From: Lacunisphaera limnophila
GTDB lineage: Bacteria > Verrucomicrobiota > Verrucomicrobiia > Opitutales > Opitutaceae
DNA length: 64,000 bases
Reading direction: 5' to 3'
Assembly (NCBI RefSeq): GCF_001746835.1
Contig: NZ_CP016094.1
Span: 434,001-498,000 of the forward strand
How positions within the stretch are numbered: the stretch's first letter is position 1; the number at the start of each line of letters is the position of its first letter. The position numbers and the translations under genes are program-made. Shown piece after piece: positions 2,974 through 63,446 of this stretch. The notes under the pieces are model-generated. The model did not search any database and had not been told where the DNA came from. It was given only the letters and a program-made list of their open reading frames with translations.

Positions 2974-3063
2974 GGAAGTAAGAATTAAGAAGTAAGAAGG
3001 AAGAAAACGAGCCCGCGCGGCCCCTTTCTTAATTCTTCCTTCTTCCTTCTTACTTCTTACTTC
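2974..3063. repeat. Inverted repeat with purine/pyrimidine arms at the uup 3' end
   Basis: The left arm (about 2974-3005) is made of GAAGTAAGAATTAAGAAG-like purine runs. The right arm (about 3025-3063) is the complementary pyrimidine run, separated by a G+C-rich loop. The stop codon of uup (3064-3066) abuts the right arm, so the element can act as a bidirectional transcription end between cheX and uup. A second member of the family is at 25784-25860. Confidence 0.75.
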
Positions 3064-21994: not shown

Positions 21995-22002
21995 TTTGCA
22001 TG

Positions 22003-22086
22003 TTGTAGGGCGGCATCTCCGAATGCCGCCTCAAACGCGACATCATGATCGCACGAAGGCGGGATTTGGAAATCCCGCCCTACATC
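22003..22086. repeat. TGTAGGGCGG paired inverted repeat, copy 1
   Basis: TTGTAGGGCGGCATCTCCGA and its near-inverse ending AATCCCGCCCTACATC, with a short spacer containing TCAAACGCG. Each half can also fold on itself (GGCGGCAT..ATGCCGCC and GGCGGGATTTGGAAATCCCGCC). It fills the space between the convergent ends of the locus A transglutaminase and the SRPBCC gene. Confidence 0.85.
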
Positions 22087-22092
22087 AATCGC

Positions 22093-22500
22093 TCACGCCA
22101 CCGCCAGCTCCGGATGCAGCTGCGCTGGCAATTCCCGCAGGCCCGTCAGCAGCGCCTCGAACAACCTTTCATAATGCTCGTCCGTCAGGCCCGCGGTTTG
22201 CCGGCACGCGGCATGGACCAGCGCGCCGCCCTCGCCATCCGAGCGCACGCGCAGCGGGATCACGAGGCTCCAGCCCGAGACATGGCGCAGGCTGAGGTCG
22301 ATCACGCCGGCGATGTCGTCGACCTTGGTCTCGACCGCCAGCTCGCCCAGCGCGGTGTAGGCCCACCAGCCCTCGCGGTGCAGCTCGACCCACTCGCACA
22401 GGCCGCCGGTCCAGGCGGGCAGGTTCTCGATGTCGGCCAGAAAATTGAATGCCGTCGCGCGCGGCGCGGCCAGGGTGAGGGTCAGGAGGCGGGTTTGCAT
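22093..22500 (-). CDS. SRPBCC-superfamily protein
   Basis: 135 residues with the START/SRPBCC-like pattern: an N-terminal strand (TRLLTLTLAAPRATAFNFLA), the segment DIENLPAWTGGLCEWVE common in polyketide-cyclase-like members, and a C-terminal long helix (EHYERLFEALLTGLRELPA). Such proteins bind hydrophobic ligands or act as co-chaperone-like or stress proteins; function cannot be assigned. It begins 12 nt after the stop of the VOC gene on the same strand, so the two are probably co-transcribed. It runs convergently toward locus A, with a REP-like element between. Confidence 0.7.
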   Translation of the reverse strand: MQTRLLTLTLAAPRATAFNFLADIENLPAWTGGLCEWVELHREGWWAYTALGELAVETKVDDIAGVIDLSLRHVSGWSLVIPLRVRSDGEGGALVHAACRQTAGLTDEHYERLFEALLTGLRELPAQLHPELAVA

Positions 22501-25783: not shown

Positions 25784-25860
25784 GAAGTAAGAATTAAGAA
25801 GGAAGAAACCAAACCACTCCGCAGTCCTATTTCTTACTTCCTCCTTCTTACTTCTTCCTT
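25784..25860. repeat. Purine/pyrimidine inverted repeat, copy 2
   Basis: GAAGTAAGAATTAAGAAGG at the left and TTCTTACTTCCTCCTTCTTA at the right, the same words as the element at 2974-3063. It occupies nearly the whole gap between the ATPase and permease genes of the ABC exporter. Confidence 0.75.
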
Positions 25861-39310: not shown

Positions 39311-39332
39311 GGGTGTCCGCGCGGCCTGCCTG

Positions 39333-39416
39333 ATGTAGGGCGGAATTTCCAAATCCCGCCTTCGTTCAAACGCCCTGCCGCGGGCAAGGCGGGGTTCGGA
39401 GACCCCGCCCTACAAC
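39333..39416. repeat. TGTAGGGCGG paired inverted repeat, copy 2
   Basis: GATGTAGGGCGGAATTTCCA opens and GGAGACCCCGCCCTACAAC closes the element. Each half also folds locally. It lies between the convergent ends of tdk and the CoA-transferase gene. Confidence 0.85.
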
Positions 39417-39453
39417 AGCACGGCATCGGGCGCCGGACCGAACATGACTGTCT

Positions 39454-45430: not shown

Positions 45431-48400
45431 GTGCCGTCCCCTTTGCCCGCTCCATCGCCGAAGCGCCGCATTCTCTGGTGGCTCCTGGCCGGCGGCGTGC
45501 TGGGGGCCCTGCTCGTCGTCACGCTCCTGTTGCTGCCCCCGGTGCAGACCTGGTTGCTGCGCCGGATCCTGGCCAACCAGCCTGAAACCAGCGTGGAATT
45601 CAGCCGCGTGGCCCTCGGTCCCGGCGGGGCCGAGGCGGCGGATGTGCGCCTGCGCCTCCCCAACCTGACGGTCGAGGCCCGCGCCCTGCGCCTCGCGATC
45701 TCGCCCTGGCAGCTGCTCTCCCGCCAGCGCCTCGCCATCGACGATCTCCAGGCGCGCCAGCTCACGATCCGCGCCTCCACCGGTCCCGCGGCCGCTTCCC
45801 CCGCCCCGTTCACGGGTCTGTTGGAAAGCCTGCAGGCGCCGCTCGCCTGGGCCTGCGGCAACGCCCAGGCCGACGGCACCCTCACCTTGGAGCAGGCCGG
45901 CGCCCCGCCGATTCGCGTGGCCTTCGCCCTCGAGGGCACCGACCTGGACATCACCCGCCCGGGCCGGGTGAAATTCAATTTCACCACCGCCGGCGATCTC
46001 GTCGCGGGATTCCAAGGGGAATGGACTTTCGCCGGCACCCTTGACTTCACGCCCGCGGCCGACGGCCGCATCGACCGGCTGGTCCTCGATGGCCGGCTGA
46101 CCCCCGGCACCAGCCCGGACTGGCTGCTGCCCGCCGCGACGGTGCAAGTCACCCTGGCCCGCACCCCGACCGGCGAATCCTTCGAGGCCACGATGCAGCC
46201 GATGGACGCGCCCGCCGCCGATTTCACCGCCCGGGCCGACTTCACTCGCGCGGACGGCCTCATCACGGGCACCTGGTCCGCCCACGGCGGTTCGGCCCTG
46301 GTCGCGCACGTGATGAAGCGCACGGATCTGCCGGTCATTGAGACGGCGAGCCAAGGTGGCTTCTCGCTCAACCCCGCCACCGGCGCGGCCACCGCCACCG
46401 CCGAGGGCGAATTCCACGGCGAACAATGGGAACGGTTCATGCCCGAACTCGCCCAAATCGGCCGGCTGCTCGGCCGCCACTCGGCCGGGCTCACGCGCCG
46501 CGACGGCCAGTGGATCCTCGACCGCCTCGACGCCACCGCCCGCAGCGAGGGCTCGGCGGCCGCCTTCCGTCTCGGCCTCACCCGCCCTGTGACCCTGCCC
46601 CCGGGCGGAGACGGCAACGGCTCGCCCTGGGGCCTCCTGGCCATCGAACAACTGCCGCTCGGCTGGACCGCCCCGGTGCTCGGCGTGGGCCGGATCAAGG
46701 ATGGTCTCGCCGCGGGCACCTGGACGGTCTCGTCGCCCGATGCCGGCACCCTGCGCTTCACGCCGGTCGGACCCTTGGCGTCGACCGCCTTCACGGTGGA
46801 AGACGCCACGCTCCCCGTATGGCCGCCGCTGACCCTGCAAGGCGAAGCCCACCTTGACCTGACCGCAACAACCGCGCGCCTGCGCATCGCGCCGGCCGCG
46901 CTCCTGACCGCCAAGGGCGATCGCGTGGAGGGTGAGATCGAATCGGTGGCCGATCTGGAGCGTTTCACTGCCACGCTGCAGGCGCACGGCACCGCCCGCC
47001 TGCCCACCTGGCTCGGCACCGCCCAGGCGCCGGTGCTCCACGGCCGGCTCACCGCCGACCTCCGCGAGTTCGATGCCACCGTGCAAAGCCTGCACGTCGC
47101 CGCCCGCGACGAAGACGGCACCGATGACACCTTCGTCCTCGAGACGCTCGCGCCGTTTGAGATCAACTACGAGCAGCCCGAGGCCATCCGGACCGCCGAG
47201 GGTGACCTGCTGCGTTTCTCCGCGCGGGGCCTGCGCCTCGACTGGGCCGCCTCGCTGCTGCCCGGACTCTCGCTCTCGGGGCGGCTCGCCGGCGGCGAAT
47301 CCACGCTGCGTCGCGAGGGTTCCGGGTTGGTCATCACCCCGGGCCGGCCCTGGGAGGTGCGTGACCTGGCCGTCATCCAGGGTGGCGTGCCGCTGCTGCG
47401 CGCCCCGGTGTTCACCCTCGAGCCCGCCGGCCGCGTGCAGGTCGGCGCCGACTGGTTGCCGGGCGATTTCATCGGCACGGTGAAGCTGGGCGGCCACCTC
47501 GACGAGATCTTCCGCCTGCGCGACCCCGCCGGGCCTTTTAGCGCCGACGGCGCCGCAACCCTCCTCCGCCGCGACGGAAAACTGGAACTGCGCTCGTTCA
47601 CCCTCGCCGCCCGGCGCGGCGACGGCTCGTCGCTGCTCGACCTCGAGACCCTGCGCCCCCTCGCCCTCGGGGCGACGGCGCAGGACAACGACATTGACCG
47701 CGCCGCCGACTCGCTGCGCCTGCGCACCGCCGCCGTGCCGCTCCCCTGGCTGCAGCCGCTGCTGCCCACCGGCACGATCCTCGAGGGCACGCTCGAACCG
47801 ACGGAGTTCGCGGCAAAGATCGACCTACCCAACCTGTTCCTGAATCCCGCGCGGCCCCTCACGTTCAATGTGACCCGGCTGGCCGACACCACCGGCGGTT
47901 ACCTGCGCAACGCCCGGATCGAGCTCTCACCCTCCGTCATCGTCATGGGCACGATCGCCTCGCTGGTGGTGGAGAACGGCCGGGTGCTGATCGATGGACA
48001 CGAGGCCGGCAACGCCGGCCTGGCCTTCATGTATTTCACGAACAACCTGCAAATCCCCGTCTCCGCGTCGCTGAATGTCCGCGCCGATCTGGCGCTGGTC
48101 CGGGGCCAGCCGCTCGCCGCAACCCTCCCGCTGCCGGCCGCGGGCACGGCGCAGCTCATCCTCGACCACGACCTGGTCGGCGGCAAGGACCCCACGGCGA
48201 CCTTCCTGCTCTTCGACGTGCCCGACCCGGCCGGCGGCGGCATGCTGCCGCGCTTCGGTTCCCGCGTGACGCTGCTCAAGTCCCAAGGCGAGCGCCACCG
48301 CGCCCGGTTTGACTTCCAGTACCAGACCGCGCCCGTCTGGAGCCAGTTCACCACCGAGTTCGACTACGGGATGACGCGGGGCAAGGCCGAGATCAACGCA

Positions 48401-49483
48401 ACCCTCACCGGCGACTTCTTCGACGCCGGCCGGTTCATGCAGCTGCTCGCGGCCTGCACCCCGGCCGAGGTGGCGCCGGTGGCCACCAGCCCGGTCGCGA
48501 CCGCCGCAGATGCGGCCGCCACCGTCGCTACGAACGCGCCCGCGGGTGCGTTCTGGCAGACGCTGCTCGGCCGGTTCGAGCTCAAGTTCGGCGCAGTGGC
48601 CTACGATGCGTACCGCGTCGAGGACCTCACCGGGGAATTCCGGATCACCGAGGACGCCCTGCAACTGAGCCAACTCGCCGGCCGAATGTTCGACGGCCGG
48701 TGGCAAGGCAACTTCCGCTTCGCCTACGACCCGGCGCAACCCGCGACTCCCTACGGTTTGACCGGTGGCTTCAGCATCCAGGATTTCTCCGCCGAGCGCA
48801 TCGTGCAGACCGCCACGCCCACCGACTTCGGCTCCTTCTCCGGCCGCCTGCACTTTGACGCCACGATCGAGGCCCGGGGTGCTAACCCGCGGCAGCTGCT
48901 GGACGGGAGCACATCGGCCTTCTCCTTCCGCGGCGAGGGCGGCCGGCTACAGCTCAAGGTGCCGCAGGCCAATCTCGCCTCCGCCGCACTGCTGGTGGGC
49001 GGCGCCATCACGTTTTCCCCCGAACTGCGCGCGATCGGCCGTCTCGTGAAGCAGTTCTCCGACCTGCCCGTCGACCAGCTCTCCGCCCGGGGCCGGCGCG
49101 AGGCGGGCGGCGCGATCCTGCTCGATGACCTCCGCATCCACACCCCGCAGCTGCGGCTCTCGGCCCGGGGCACCGTCGCGGCCAACCCGGACCTCGACCT
49201 GGCCGCCCTGCCCTTCGAGCTGCCAGTGACGCTCGCCGTCCGCGACGAGATGGCCGTGCTGCTGAAGGGCATGAAGCTGATCGGCCCGAAACCCGACGCC
49301 GACGGTTTTTTCACCATGACGCGGCAGCCGGTCCTGCGCGGCACGCTGGGCGCCCCCGACACGACCGCGCTTTATGATCTCCTCGCCCAAGCGGCGTCGG
49401 GCTCCTCCGGCACCTTCGGTTTCCTGATGAGGAAAGTGCAGCAGGAAGCGGCCAAGGCGCAGGCGGATGGGAAAAAGCCGTAG
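45431..49483 (+). CDS. Giant AsmA/YdbH-like envelope protein
   Basis: 1350 residues: a short cytoplasmic start rich in Pro/Arg, one membrane anchor (about 14-36, ILWWLLAGGVLGALLVVTLL), then a very long beta-rich periplasmic region. The segment ARIELSPSVIVMGTIASLVV..ENGRVLIDG (about 820-860) resembles the YdbH/dicarboxylate-transport region. The end (about 1130-1320: FDATIEARGANPRQLLDGST, LDDLRIHTPQLRLSARGTV) is AsmA_2-like. AsmA/TamB/YdbH proteins span the periplasm as hydrophobic grooves that carry phospholipids to the outer membrane. The start is a GTG at 45431, 53 nt after the lactonase stop. It ends before a REP-like element. Confidence 0.78.
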   Translation: MPSPLPAPSPKRRILWWLLAGGVLGALLVVTLLLLPPVQTWLLRRILANQPETSVEFSRVALGPGGAEAADVRLRLPNLTVEARALRLAISPWQLLSRQRLAIDDLQARQLTIRASTGPAAASPAPFTGLLESLQAPLAWACGNAQADGTLTLEQAGAPPIRVAFALEGTDLDITRPGRVKFNFTTAGDLVAGFQGEWTFAGTLDFTPAADGRIDRLVLDGRLTPGTSPDWLLPAATVQVTLARTPTGESFEATMQPMDAPAADFTARADFTRADGLITGTWSAHGGSALVAHVMKRTDLPVIETASQGGFSLNPATGAATATAEGEFHGEQWERFMPELAQIGRLLGRHSAGLTRRDGQWILDRLDATARSEGSAAAFRLGLTRPVTLPPGGDGNGSPWGLLAIEQLPLGWTAPVLGVGRIKDGLAAGTWTVSSPDAGTLRFTPVGPLASTAFTVEDATLPVWPPLTLQGEAHLDLTATTARLRIAPAALLTAKGDRVEGEIESVADLERFTATLQAHGTARLPTWLGTAQAPVLHGRLTADLREFDATVQSLHVAARDEDGTDDTFVLETLAPFEINYEQPEAIRTAEGDLLRFSARGLRLDWAASLLPGLSLSGRLAGGESTLRREGSGLVITPGRPWEVRDLAVIQGGVPLLRAPVFTLEPAGRVQVGADWLPGDFIGTVKLGGHLDEIFRLRDPAGPFSADGAATLLRRDGKLELRSFTLAARRGDGSSLLDLETLRPLALGATAQDNDIDRAADSLRLRTAAVPLPWLQPLLPTGTILEGTLEPTEFAAKIDLPNLFLNPARPLTFNVTRLADTTGGYLRNARIELSPSVIVMGTIASLVVENGRVLIDGHEAGNAGLAFMYFTNNLQIPVSASLNVRADLALVRGQPLAATLPLPAAGTAQLILDHDLVGGKDPTATFLLFDVPDPAGGGMLPRFGSRVTLLKSQGERHRARFDFQYQTAPVWSQFTTEFDYGMTRGKAEINATLTGDFFDAGRFMQLLAACTPAEVAPVATSPVATAADAAATVATNAPAGAFWQTLLGRFELKFGAVAYDAYRVEDLTGEFRITEDALQLSQLAGRMFDGRWQGNFRFAYDPAQPATPYGLTGGFSIQDFSAERIVQTATPTDFGSFSGRLHFDATIEARGANPRQLLDGSTSAFSFRGEGGRLQLKVPQANLASAALLVGGAITFSPELRAIGRLVKQFSDLPVDQLSARGRREAGGAILLDDLRIHTPQLRLSARGTVAANPDLDLAALPFELPVTLAVRDEMAVLLKGMKLIGPKPDADGFFTMTRQPVLRGTLGAPDTTALYDLLAQAASGSSGTFGFLMRKVQQEAAKAQADGKKP

Positions 49484-49503: not shown

Positions 49504-49613
49504 CTGTAGGGCGGGGTCTCCGACGGAGGTTTGGCAGAGAGGGCGAAGCAACGCCGCTTTTAAGCCGGCATACTGTCCGAATGAAGGCGGGATTCGGCGA
49601 TCCCGCCCTACAT
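49504..49613. repeat. TGTAGGGCGG paired inverted repeat with extended interior
   Basis: CTGTAGGGCGGGGTCTCCGA opens and GGCGATCCCGCCCTACATC closes. The interior is longer than in other copies (GAGGTTTGGCAGAGAGGGCG and CCGCTTTTAAGCCGGCATAC). Its last base touches the stop codon of the lnt remnant. Confidence 0.8.
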
Positions 49614-49758
49614 CAGAACACCTTCTCGCCGCCCGGCCGCGGCGGTCGCAGGGTTTGGGCCACGTAATATACGGCCACGGGGAACGCGGCGCACAGCAGC
49701 ACGAACCAGTCGCCATGCTGCGTGTAGAAACGCTGCTGCCCGCGCCAGCACCAAACTC
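49613..49758 (-). pseudogene. lnt': Second, divergent copy of the lnt 3' end (remnant)
   Basis: On the minus strand this reads WRGQQRFYTQHGDWFVLLCA and continues to RPPRPGGEKVF and a TGA stop (49615-49613). It matches the last 46 codons of the intact lnt (51262 on) with five substitutions and loss of two prolines; 49 consecutive bases (roughly 49685-49733) are identical. An in-frame stop just upstream and the lack of the catalytic domains show that it is only a fragment. With the intact lnt end it brackets the GGDEF gene as direct repeats. It may be the displaced original end of lnt or a donor-derived end. Confidence 0.85.
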
Positions 49759-49826
49759 AACCACGAAGCCGGCGCCGTGGACGGCGAACCAGCTGGCGCC
49801 AATCCGGGGCGGCTCCTTGCGCCGGA

Positions 49827-51206
49827 TCAAGCCGCCCCGCCAGACTGGGCGTAGACCCGGTTGCGGCCCTGCGCCTTGGCCTGGTAGAGCGCCAGGTCGG
49901 CCTGTTTGAACAGCAGCTCAAGGGTTTGCCCGTGATGGTATTCACTGACGCCGAAACTGGCGGTCACCCGATTTGGGTAACGGTCGATACGAAATTGAGC
50001 ATTGTCGAGCAACTGGCGGAGCCGCTCAGCCTGCTCGACCGCTTCGGCTTCACCGGTATTCGGCAACAGCACCAGGAACTCCTCGCCGCCCCAACGCGCC
50101 ACCACGTCCTGCTCCCGCACCGCTGCCTGCAATGCGCGCGCCACCGCTTTCAGCACATCGTCACCAATGTCGTGGCCAAACTGATCGTTGATGCGTTTGA
50201 AGTGATCGATATCGACCAACACCAGCGCACAGGCACCTCCGGCCTGACCGATTCGCTCCAGATCATTCTGAACGAGCTGGGCCATTGCCCGCCGGTTGAT
50301 GAGCTGGGTCAGGAAATCGGTGCGGGCGTTGTGCTCGAGTAATTGCGCCATGCGTTCGCGTTCGGCAATTTCGCCCTGCAATCGCTGATTGCTGGTCTGC
50401 AGCTCCGCCGTGCGCCGCGCTACCCTTTGCTCCAGCTCGCTATGGTGACGCTGGATCCGGCCCAGCATGTCGTCAAAGGTGGCGGTCAGCTGCGACAGCT
50501 CGTCACCGCTTCCGATCGGACTGAGCTCGTCGCCCTGCGCCATGGCGACGCAACGCCGATGCAGCGCGTAGATACGCTTCAAAAAGTTGCGCGACAACAT
50601 CTGCGCAAAGAGCAGCGCCAGCAGGATCGACAATGCGAGCGAAAGAATGCCGGTGCGGCGCAGCTCATACAGCTTGTTTTCGACTTCATCGGCGCGCATA
50701 TCGATGCCAATGGCATAGCGGCCGTTGCTGTCGGCGATCGGTCCGTAACCGGACATGAAGGTGCCCCATTTGTCATGAATCAGTTCGCGATCACAGCTCG
50801 AGGTCGTGAAGCCGTTCCGCAATGCCGGGGCGCTGACCTGGTAGATTTCGCCCGGCTGGGCCGGATCGTCCGGGTCTGAGTCGAGCACGAACTGAACTTT
50901 GTCGCCGGTGCGACGCAGCACGTAAATGTAGGCAATATCAGGGTTCGAGCCAACCAGTTCACGCAGCCGTGTAATCCCCTCACGGTAGGCGGGGTTGTCC
51001 TTGTCGGCGACCGTCAACAGCTGATCAAGCTCCGTTGGACTGAACGTGCGTGAGAGCAATCCGGTGCTGTACTGCAACCGCGCCTGCAGGCTGCCGAGCA
51101 AGGTGTCGATCGCGCTTTGGTAGAAGTAACTGCCGATGCTGCCAGACACCAGCACGACGGCAAGAAAGTGACTGAAGAACAGTTTTTGTCGGGTCGAGAA
51201 TGTCAT
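49827..51206 (-). CDS. Membrane-bound GGDEF diguanylate cyclase, probably horizontally acquired
   Basis: 459 residues: helix 1 (about 9-29), a periplasmic sensor (about 30-185), helix 2 (about 187-206), a HAMP-like segment (KRIYALHRRCVAMAQGDELS), a coiled coil (ELEQRVARRTAELQTSNQRL) and a GGDEF domain (about 295-455) with the active motif GGEEF (373-377). Five residues upstream is REQD, an intact RxxD inhibitory site, so it should make c-di-GMP with product inhibition. Base use is visibly unlike its neighbours: the 60 bases from 50641 are 55% G+C, those from 52441 in lnt are 67%. Its style resembles proteobacterial cyclases. It is flanked by duplicated lnt 3' ends. No EAL or PilZ gene is in the window. 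Confidence 0.92.
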   Translation of the reverse strand: MTFSTRQKLFFSHFLAVVLVSGSIGSYFYQSAIDTLLGSLQARLQYSTGLLSRTFSPTELDQLLTVADKDNPAYREGITRLRELVGSNPDIAYIYVLRRTGDKVQFVLDSDPDDPAQPGEIYQVSAPALRNGFTTSSCDRELIHDKWGTFMSGYGPIADSNGRYAIGIDMRADEVENKLYELRRTGILSLALSILLALLFAQMLSRNFLKRIYALHRRCVAMAQGDELSPIGSGDELSQLTATFDDMLGRIQRHHSELEQRVARRTAELQTSNQRLQGEIAERERMAQLLEHNARTDFLTQLINRRAMAQLVQNDLERIGQAGGACALVLVDIDHFKRINDQFGHDIGDDVLKAVARALQAAVREQDVVARWGGEEFLVLLPNTGEAEAVEQAERLRQLLDNAQFRIDRYPNRVTASFGVSEYHHGQTLELLFKQADLALYQAKAQGRNRVYAQSGGAA

Positions 51207-51261
51207 GCGCGGGTCTTTGTCGCAGCGCAGGAACGCCGCCGCAAGCCCGTAGGCCCCGGGC

Positions 51262-52920
51262 CTAAAACACTTTCTCGCCGCCCGGCCGCGGCGGCGGCGG
51301 CCGCAGCGTCAGAGCCACGTAATACGCGCCCACGGTAAACGCGGCGCACAGCAGCACGAACCAGTCGCCATGCTGCGTGTAGAAACTCTGCTGCCCGCGC
51401 CACGCGAGGTCGCGGTTGACGGTCACGGTCTGGCCGCCGCGGAAATAAACGCTGTCCGCCGCGCTGCGCAGCGTGGCCCGGATGGTGCCGTACTCGTCGA
51501 TCCAGCCGCTCCAGCCGCCGTTGCCGACGCGGATGACCGGCCGGCGGTTCTCCACCGCCCGCAGCACCGAATGGGCCGCGTGCTGGTAGGCCGCGCCGCC
51601 CTCGCCGAACCAGGCGTTGTTCGTCAGCACAGCCAGCACCTCGGCGCCCGCCTGCACGCTCTCCCGCGCCAGGTTGGGGAAAATGTCCTCATAACAGATC
51701 AGCACGCCCACCGGCACCCGGCCGGTGGTGCCGGGCAGGGACAGCGGCGCGGCGGAAAGACCCGGCGTGAAATCACCGCCAATGGGGGCCACTTTCTCCA
51801 GCCAGCCGAGCACCGGGCGCAGCGGGATGTATTCCCCGAAGGGCACGAGCTTCCGCTTGGTGTAGTGTTTGGCGGATAACCCGCCGACCGGATCCACGAC
51901 AAAGGCGCCGTTGTGCCAGCTGTCCGGGTCCTCGCCCGGCATGGCCGCGGCCACCGAGCCGAACAACAGCGGCTTGCCGGTCTTGCGCGTCACCTGCTGC
52001 AACCAGTCCTGCACGTTCGCATCCTGATACAGTGCCCACGGCGTGACCGCCTCGGGCCAGAGGATGAAGTCGGGCGCCCCGCGGTCGTTGGCGGCCACCG
52101 TTACCTCGTCCAGCGTCGCCAGCACGCTGCTCGCGAAAGCCTCGTCCCACTTCTGGGTCTGCGGGATGTAGGGCTGCACCAGCGCCACCTTGGCGAGCTT
52201 GACCCGCTGGCCGCCCATCAGGCCAGTGAGGAACGGAAACGAACCGCCGATGAGCAGGAGCAGCGCGACCATGAACTCCGGGCTGCGCTTCCGCAGGCCA
52301 GTCATGCCCTCGAAGAAAATCCGGTGGGCGTAGGCCGCCACGCCGAGGCCGAAAAACACCAGCAGGAAGGACACGCCCCAGGCGCCCGTGATCGAGGCAC
52401 TCTGCAGCACGAGCGGACGCTGCCACTGGCTCGCGGCGAGCGGCAGCCATGGAAACCCGCCGAAGAGCACGCTGCGCAGCCACTCCAGCATGACCCACAG
52501 GCCCGCCAGACCCAGCAGCACGATCACCCGCACGACCACCGGATGCCCGGCCAGCCGCGGCACCGCCCACCACGCGGCCAGGAACCAGACCCCGACCAGC
52601 AGCCCGACAAAGGGCCCGAGCATGAAGAGGCCGGCCCACGTCACATGGTGGAGCCAACCGAGCAACACGGTCCAAGCCACCACCTGGGAACCCAGGGTGG
52701 CCCAGGCAAAGTGGCGGAACGACGGCCGGCGGTAGGCCCACAGCACCGCGGGCACGACCAGCGCATAGGCGGCCTCGCCGGCGTTGACGGGGGGAAACGC
52801 GACGACCGTGAACAACAGCGTGGACGCAAACACGGCTAGGCCCCACGCGAGTTGCGGGTACCGTTCCCACAGGGTCGGGCGCGGCGCGTACGGGTCGGAC
52901 AGGTCGATCGGGGCGGTCAT
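51262..52920 (-). CDS. lnt: Apolipoprotein N-acyltransferase
   Basis: 552 residues: about six to eight N-terminal membrane helices (1-240) followed by a nitrilase-fold catalytic domain (about 255-510) and a final helix. The catalytic triad is visible as Glu290 in LWPEAVTPW, Lys357 in KRKLVPFGEYIP and Cys409 in VLICYEDIFP. Lnt adds the third acyl chain to outer-membrane lipoproteins, at the periplasmic face of the inner membrane. The ATG at 52920 lies 2 nt after the HAD gene stop; a GTG at 52926 would overlap it by 4 nt, so the genes are translationally coupled. The last 46 codons are duplicated downstream at 49613-49758, on the other side of the GGDEF gene. Confidence 0.95.
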   Translation of the reverse strand: MTAPIDLSDPYAPRPTLWERYPQLAWGLAVFASTLLFTVVAFPPVNAGEAAYALVVPAVLWAYRRPSFRHFAWATLGSQVVAWTVLLGWLHHVTWAGLFMLGPFVGLLVGVWFLAAWWAVPRLAGHPVVVRVIVLLGLAGLWVMLEWLRSVLFGGFPWLPLAASQWQRPLVLQSASITGAWGVSFLLVFFGLGVAAYAHRIFFEGMTGLRKRSPEFMVALLLLIGGSFPFLTGLMGGQRVKLAKVALVQPYIPQTQKWDEAFASSVLATLDEVTVAANDRGAPDFILWPEAVTPWALYQDANVQDWLQQVTRKTGKPLLFGSVAAAMPGEDPDSWHNGAFVVDPVGGLSAKHYTKRKLVPFGEYIPLRPVLGWLEKVAPIGGDFTPGLSAAPLSLPGTTGRVPVGVLICYEDIFPNLARESVQAGAEVLAVLTNNAWFGEGGAAYQHAAHSVLRAVENRRPVIRVGNGGWSGWIDEYGTIRATLRSAADSVYFRGGQTVTVNRDLAWRGQQSFYTQHGDWFVLLCAAFTVGAYYVALTLRPPPPRPGGEKVF

Positions 52921-52922
52921 GG

Positions 52923-53615
52923 TCACAATTGCGGCAACACGGCCGGCAAGTCGGCGAGACTCGTGATCTGGCGGAAACGCGGCAGCGCCGCGGGGTCGAT
53001 CTCCACGTGCTCGTGCTGCCAGGTGACGTGATAGGGCACGTGCACGCCGGCGCCGCCGAGCTGGAGCACGGGCAGGATGTCGGACTTGAGTGAGTTGCCT
53101 ACCATCGCGAACTCGTCCAGCGCCACGCCGTGGCGGCGCAGCACGCGCTCGTAGGCGGGGCCGTCCTTTTCGCTCAGGATCTCGATCGCGTGGAAATGGG
53201 CGGCCAGGCCCGAGGCGGCTACCTTGCGTTCCTGGTGGTGCAGGTCGCCCTTGGTGATCAGCAGCAGGCGATAGTCCCGCGCCAGCGCGGGCACCACTGC
53301 GGCGACGCCCGCCAGCAACTCGACCGGATGCGCGAGCATCTCCCGTCCCGTGGCCAGGATCTCCTCGATCTCGCCGGCCGTGACCTGGCCGCGCGTCAGG
53401 GTGATGGCCGTCTCGACGCAGCTGAGGGTGTAGCCCTTCACGCCGTAGCCATAAAGGCCGAGGTTCTTCATCTCGGTGGCGAAGAGCACGCGGTCCACCT
53501 CGGCCCGCGGGTGGTATTTCGCCAGCAGGGCCCGGTAGCGCTCATGGGCCTGCTCGAAGATATCCTCGTTGCGCCAGAGGGTGTCGTCGGCGTCGAAACC
53601 GATGATGCGGATCAT
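52923..53615 (-). CDS. HAD-superfamily hydrolase
   Basis: 230 residues with HAD motif I IGFDADDTLWRNEDIF (DADDT with nucleophile Asp8), motif II LLITKGDLHHQE, motif III Lys in ILSEKDG and motif IV FAMVGNSLKSDILPVL. The helical cap between motifs I and II indicates subclass I. It is probably a phosphatase of small phosphometabolites; the DADDTLW variant is common in proteins of this unassigned group. The gene is immediately upstream of lnt on the same strand and overlaps or abuts it. That pairing may simply reflect operon packing; no link to lipoprotein acylation is evident. It is preceded by the secA 3' region, 87 nt away. Confidence 0.88.
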   Translation of the reverse strand: MIRIIGFDADDTLWRNEDIFEQAHERYRALLAKYHPRAEVDRVLFATEMKNLGLYGYGVKGYTLSCVETAITLTRGQVTAGEIEEILATGREMLAHPVELLAGVAAVVPALARDYRLLLITKGDLHHQERKVAASGLAAHFHAIEILSEKDGPAYERVLRRHGVALDEFAMVGNSLKSDILPVLQLGGAGVHVPYHVTWQHEHVEIDPAALPRFRQITSLADLPAVLPQL

Positions 53616-62404: not shown

Positions 62405-62431
62405 GGGAAAGGCGAGCAATCGTTATGCCAG

Positions 62432-62515
62432 CTGTAGGGCGGGATCTCCGAATCCCGCCTCGAACGCGCCACCAGGTTCGAACGCTGGCGGGGTTCGGAG
62501 ACCCCGCCCTACAAC
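62432..62515. repeat. TGTAGGGCGG paired inverted repeat, copy 3
   Basis: CTGTAGGGCGGGATCTCCGA opens and GGAGACCCCGCCCTACAAC closes, with the TCGAACGCG spacer. It lies between the uxs stop and the NUP gene start on the same strand, the only copy not between convergent genes. Confidence 0.85.
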
Positions 62516-62519
62516 ACCC

Positions 62520-63446
<927 letters not shown>

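Follow-up and report, generated by a model that had tools for sequence, protein, structure and literature searches.

An apparently foreign GGDEF gene lies between lnt and a second, displaced lnt 3′ end in Lacunisphaera limnophila

A 64,000-base stretch of the Lacunisphaera limnophila chromosome (the window; bases 434001–498000 on one 4,199,284-base contig) holds an old, real single-gene horizontal acquisition accompanied by a duplicated and displaced host gene end. The acquired gene encodes a 459-aa GGDEF protein (49827–51206, minus strand; Pfam HAMP and GGDEF) and follows lnt, the intact gene for apolipoprotein N-acyltransferase (554 aa; 51262–52926, minus strand; Pfam CN_hydrolase and LNT_N), with a second lnt 3′ end on its far side. 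To the explanation that the single GGDEF gene arrived by horizontal transfer with a diverged lnt 3′ end and was joined additively behind lnt, we give about an even chance. Under this mechanism, the incoming DNA would have carried the GGDEF gene and an already diverged lnt 3′ end, and would have recombined with the resident lnt at a point inside, or immediately ahead of, its final ∼140 bases. It would have been added rather than exchanged, lnt gaining the complete incoming end, and the resident end would have been moved beyond the insert, complete and with its frame kept, still facing its old downstream neighbor. The additive step may have relied either on an integrase that was lost afterward or on RecA-type recombination at one end combined with illegitimate joining at the other.

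The last 46 codons of lnt and its stop (51262–51402, minus strand) recur in frame on the same strand at 49613–49747, as 44 codons followed by TGA. When aligned, the two ends share 120 of 134 bases (14 differences) with an additional 6-base gap, and the remnant departs from lnt at five residues (S>R, T>P, G>A, A>V, and L>Q) and lacks two prolines, in agreement with the counts in the initial annotation of this DNA. That annotation had placed the second end at 49613–49758; its left edge is exact, and its right edge lies 11 bases too far. The duplication scored E = 1.9e-41 in a comparison of the window with itself, and a whole-genome search with Lnt (E ≤ 0.001) returned only lnt and the remnant. 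Because of this E value and the uniqueness of the second match, a chance origin is excluded. The remnant was also considered as a dispersed repeat and rejected, there being one extra copy of the lnt end in the genome; what is dispersed is only the ∼108-base element that follows it. The 55 bases between the lnt stop and the GGDEF start (51207–51261) had no significant match in the other loci compared, and the 79 bases between the GGDEF stop and the remnant (49748–49826) had none listed among the genus genomes. A single 38-base match of the latter stretch in locus L006, inside a downstream gene, was judged to be chance. An assembly or binning artifact has a negligible probability. The structure lies on a single contig, and an excerpt of the genome report for Lacunisphaera limnophila IG16bT (PMC5303756) gives a closed, PacBio-only chromosome of 4,199,284 bp at ∼80× with a mean read of 3,823 bp, which could span the 1.8-kb structure. 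Misassembly is unlikely because the contig is exactly as long as this published, PacBio-closed chromosome.

The gene order at the locus is lactonase (PF10282; 44235–45377, plus strand), a 1350-aa open reading frame (ORF; 45431–49483, plus strand) with no Pfam match and AsmA-like by eye only, the dispersed palindromic repeat, lnt remnant, GGDEF gene, lnt, HAD hydrolase (52923–53615), and secA, all from the remnant to secA being on the minus strand. Nineteen congener lnt loci were read with 1.5 kb of flank, the downstream side of congener G005, in which lnt is split over two contigs, being left out. A lactonase homolog is convergent downstream of lnt in 12 of the 19. In congener G014 (locus L015), a homolog of the 1350-aa ORF faces lnt with less than 40 bases between them, an empty site (1 of 19), and the remaining six loci have neither gene within the 1.5-kb flank. 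The HAD hydrolase has a homolog upstream of lnt in 10 of the 19 loci (flank of up to 1.5 kb). The neighborhood of lnt is variable, but the lactonase and the 1350-aa ORF are, by these gene orders, old neighbors of lnt, which places the addition of the GGDEF gene between the ORF and lnt. The earlier proposal that the gene was added at the lnt 3′ end is borne out by G014, whose lnt faces the same convergent neighbor without the insert. The 20 other genus genomes, among them G005 with its split lnt, all lacked a second lnt end.

The GGDEF gene looks foreign to its host, as initially annotated, because it has no full-length kin in the relatives searched, its nearest kin are in other phyla, and its G+C content is low. 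Its G+C is 0.602 and its G+C at third codon positions (GC3) 0.746, versus 0.692 and 0.903 for lnt. These values lie near the bottom of a heuristic set of 258 host ORFs of at least 200 aa, drawn from the window and 19 stretches of the genome, in which 7 are as low in G+C and 10 in GC3; the set is possibly short of some low-GC genes because it was filtered for coding-like GC3. The protein was searched against 38 genomes, its own and 37 relatives, 20 of these from the same genus. No full-length counterpart was found in any of the 37; their matches reached no more than 44% identity across the GGDEF domain or were weaker partial ones, and 12 gave no match. In a contig search of one genome per species, with the best 80 of 287 matches kept, the closest full-length relatives came from metagenome-assembled genomes (MAGs) of Burkholderiales (L052, 62% identity) and Desulfobulbaceae (L053, 60%), after which identities among those 80 drop to 45% and below. 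A 25-row tree of the sensor half groups the window protein with L052 and L053 at 100/99.

The distribution of the sensor-half family is patchy. In searches with a sensor-half alignment, 12 of 387 Verrucomicrobiota genomes matched at E ≤ 1e-30; at the stricter E ≤ 1e-60, the matches were 1 of 369 genomes in the class of L052 (that of L052 itself) and 10 of 395 in the phylum of L053 (L053's own included). A native origin of the GGDEF gene, with loss from the congeners, would draw on the Verrucomicrobiota members, ten of which, the host included, match at E below 1e-99 and two weakly. We consider this highly improbable: the nine other strong members carry a short C-terminal domain instead of GGDEF and fall elsewhere in the sensor-half tree, and the closest kin, among the best 80 of 287 matches, belong to other phyla. 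The short domain that follows the Cache-HAMP sensor half in place of GGDEF contains cysteines and has, with some variation, the pattern LPICxxCKKIRDDxGYWxQVE … HGICPxC; it is seen in L157–L165, L173, and L174, which are mainly from Verrucomicrobiota, L173 and L174 having come from the search of the L053 phylum.

In a tree of 21 lnt ends, the lnt end and the remnant are sisters at 99/97 on near-equal branches (0.059 and 0.065). Their differences are unevenly placed: of the aligned bases, the first 66 contain 2, and the final 66 contain 11 as well as the gap (P 0.036 once the faster evolution of this half among congeners is taken into account). A near-identical first half followed by a divergent second half is what would be seen if a crossover lay between them. 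By Nei–Gojobori (NG86) counting, 8 differences are synonymous and 5 non-synonymous, for a ratio of non-synonymous to synonymous proportions (pN/pS) of 0.21; a remnant neutral throughout would be expected to hold 64 to 71% of the change, and would show so few non-synonymous changes at P 0.03 to 0.05. The preponderance of synonymous differences, together with the equal branches and the closely matching first half, weakly suggests that the ends had already diverged as coding alleles when they were joined, rather than being duplicated in place and then decaying. We infer divergence of the ends as coding sequences before they met, and an additive crossover.

Several observations weigh against arrival with a diverged lnt end. 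The divergence statistics rest on 13 substitutions only, and some congener pairs show a similar half-to-half contrast (e.g., 4 versus 16 differences). When changes are polarized by eye against congener codons, the unambiguous replacements (S>R, A>V, and L>Q) fall on the remnant, as decay would give, and the clear changes on the lnt side are all silent (AAG>AAA, TTC>TTT, and TGA>TAG). Over the second half, lnt is closer than the remnant to 14 of 19 congeners, the two are equally distant from 4, and the remnant is nearer to 1. No donor with the same lnt end is known, and the nearest match in the genome to Phage_integrase (PF00589) is at 902069, ∼415 kb away (serine recombinases were not searched).

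The main rival is duplication in place, in which template switching or staggered-break repair would have copied the lnt end, the foreign gene would have been captured then or later, and the outer copy would have decayed. We regard this as a real possibility, short of probable. It requires neither a second lnt allele nor an integrase, and it accords with the sister position of the two ends in the lnt-end tree and with the polarized replacements lying on the remnant; the equal branches and mostly synonymous differences argue against it. Prior divergence and decay may also hold together, diverged alleles having been joined and the remnant then having decayed to some extent.

Duplication in place gains further support from a local tandem duplication of a gene end in the same genome, that of cheX, and from the palindromic repeats that adjoin both duplicated ends (by eye in the case of cheX). 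The cheX 3′ end is present at 2768–2882 and 2854–2969, the units being 78% alike at a spacing of 86 and the stack spanning 2768–2971. Each unit contains the last cheX codons and a palindrome-like stretch (cgccgtagcc … gaaggcgga), which by eye resembles one that recurs near nuo-type genes in a second stretch of the genome (L213). The initial annotation drew a parallel between these stacked ends and the lnt locus, which does not hold: the cheX stack is a local tandem repeat with 86-nt spacing and no inserted gene, a different kind of event. Against duplication in place, no other duplicated coding end was seen in the ∼394 kb sampled outside the window. Twenty 20-kb stretches of the genome, one overlapping the window by 6 kb, gave 17 local direct-repeat pairs, the cheX stack included. 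Pairs that touch a gene end, in L209, L213, and L215, are dispersed palindromic elements; the rest are intragenic, intergenic, or shared by paralogs, and no pair is a coding end copied beyond an insert. A genome-wide habit of duplicated gene ends was considered and rejected. Ku was found in none of eight genomes tested, including that of the host, which also counts against duplication in place; Ku-type end joining is unlikely because the genome has no Ku match.

Two intergenic repeat elements were seen. The first, of ∼108 bases (TGTAGGGCGGG … CCCGCCCTACA), has many copies in the host and congener genomes. In the window, it occupies 49505–49612, directly after the remnant stop (some matches start up to a few bases earlier), and it recurs at about 22001–22099, 39327–39417, and 62426–62526. 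In L213 (2700–2761 and 4732–4793; about 2,222,700 and 2,224,730 of the genome), two genes, by eye nuoI-like and nuoC-like, run on into a palindromic repeat that supplies their C-terminal tails. Both tails read PVAxPLDEPRRSxQxEGG, so that here repeats seem, from the reading frames, to have been turned into protein ends. The second element is an A+T-rich hairpin (AAGTAAGAATTAAGAAG …) found at L215 734–850 and 3003–3115, where it starts exactly at the ends of flhB-like and flhA-like genes (by eye), and in the window at 2975–3055, behind the cheX stack, and 25784–25860.

The initial annotation had compared the layout to that of a site-specific island and had noted that no integrase is present. The absence is upheld for tyrosine integrases at the locus, serine recombinases lying outside the search; the island itself is not, with no tyrosine-integrase match near lnt and no congener with a second lnt end. 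On the lnt-bearing contigs of the 20 other genus genomes, most of them short, the nearest PF00589 match is weak, below the cut-off, and ∼165 kb off. A search of the full-text literature found lnt nowhere named as a genomic-island integration site, which says little. A mobile carrier of the GGDEF gene was rejected on three results: the sensor half gave 2 weak matches (26 and 29% identity) in 72,556 plasmid records and 1 weak match, covering 17% of the query, in 50,697 phage records, and a scan of viral contigs gave one locus that matched the GGDEF domain only. An eroded site-specific element, whose integrase used the lnt 3′ end and whose cargo was later deleted except for one gene, nevertheless fits the layout and scale of prophage e14 in icd (here ∼135 bases carrying 14 changes, plus a 6-base gap), and the near-identical first half would be its crossover core. 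We consider such an element unlikely, since the GGDEF gene nearly fills the 1.5-kb insert, the nearest tyrosine-integrase match is the distant one given above, and lnt shows no sign of being a shared attachment site among the 20 other genus genomes. Additive recombination with the lnt end of a near relative, with no integrase, also accounts for the facts of the e14-like layout.

The acquired gene probably encodes a Cache-HAMP-GGDEF membrane diguanylate cyclase, as judged from its predicted domains. Pfam detected GGDEF (PF00990, E 3.6e-49) and HAMP (PF00672, E 2.4e-5, 25 bits, exactly its cut-off), and gave no Cache match in the protein. An AlphaFold model of residues 1 to 282 (mean predicted local distance difference test score 77.5; predicted template modeling score 0.58) matched the sensor domains of Tlp3, KinD, CitA, and WalK in Foldseek (probability 1.00, E 1e-4 to 1e-3) with modest TM-scores of at most 0.62 by target; the modeled N-terminal sensor thus has a predicted Cache-type fold, flanked by long helices that by eye span the membrane. 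The translation contains GGEEF, the usual active-site motif, and five residues ahead of it REQD (RxxD), the usual inhibitory-site motif. The likely function is that of a working, product-inhibited diguanylate cyclase with an outward-facing sensor, that is, a membrane sensor predicted to make cyclic di-GMP (c-di-GMP), and the gene, 55 bases downstream of the lnt stop, is probably co-transcribed with lnt. With the window protein as the sole query, the GGDEF part had a match at only one further place in the genome, no search for the GGDEF family having been made. For this reason, the newcomer may have altered the c-di-GMP signaling of the organism.

A possible second case occurs in the Desulfobulbaceae MAG, where the sister GGDEF gene lies between trpE and trpG (both named by eye) and is bracketed by a divergent 58-base direct repeat (L053 3886–3943 and 5637–5694; 78%) that matches nothing else in this 3.2-Mb MAG at E ≤ 1. 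Flanking repeats were present in 2 of 26 loci of the wider family, those of the window and L053 (next best E 0.011; several loci had less than 1,200 bases of downstream flank, and L167, which gave no match, was dropped), and thus in two of the three members of the clade of the window, L052, and L053. This would be expected if the GGDEF lineage were a one-gene unit that inserts repeatedly at gene or operon boundaries, leaving long direct repeats (∼58 to 140 bases) that later diverge, with no recombinase of its own, and a recombinase-free route of one-gene transfer would then become testable. We think this quite improbable. L052, the third clade member, showed no flanking repeat, and the genome closest to L053 (G1185), in which small ORFs, toxin-antitoxin-like by eye, precede trpG, retains the sequence adjoining trpG and is without most of the repeated part. 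Because of the latter, the L053 repeat is not shown to be host sequence, and it may be coincidental. Among the trp loci of 19 relatives, trpE ends within 15 bases of trpG in 9, a gap of ∼100 to 600 bases separates them in 7, and 3 have no trpE in the flank.

The layout at lnt is reminiscent of prophage e14 in icd of Escherichia coli K-12 (icdC remnant), where likewise the housekeeping reading frame is intact and a second 3′ end lies beyond the insert; an excerpt of PMC11148124 describes a 165-bp duplicated icd end with 12 base changes. As given there, e14 is a prophage with an integrase gene, intE, in contrast to the 1.5-kb insert with one cargo gene and no tyrosine integrase nearby at lnt. 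The locus is not filed as an e14-type element because of its one-gene insert, the PF00589 distance, and the lack of such an element in relatives. An island-encoded diguanylate cyclase of Vibrio alginolyticus, in the portion of PMC10672970 consulted, is similar as a diguanylate cyclase on horizontally moved DNA and differs in that no mobile element was found around the window gene. As outlined in parts of the respective reports, homology-facilitated illegitimate recombination (PMC3240628) and duplications made by transformation (PMC3784515) share with the lnt locus the addition of foreign or donor DNA through one homologous end without an integrase, but the duplications in the latter span about 100 to 900 kb, as compared to ∼140 bases here. 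The lnt locus is a further example of a known pattern, unusual for it in having no tyrosine integrase near the acquired gene (serine recombinases not having been searched). It preserves, in a verrucomicrobial isolate, the clean scar left when a single gene was acquired, the second lnt end recording the place and the rough manner of entry.

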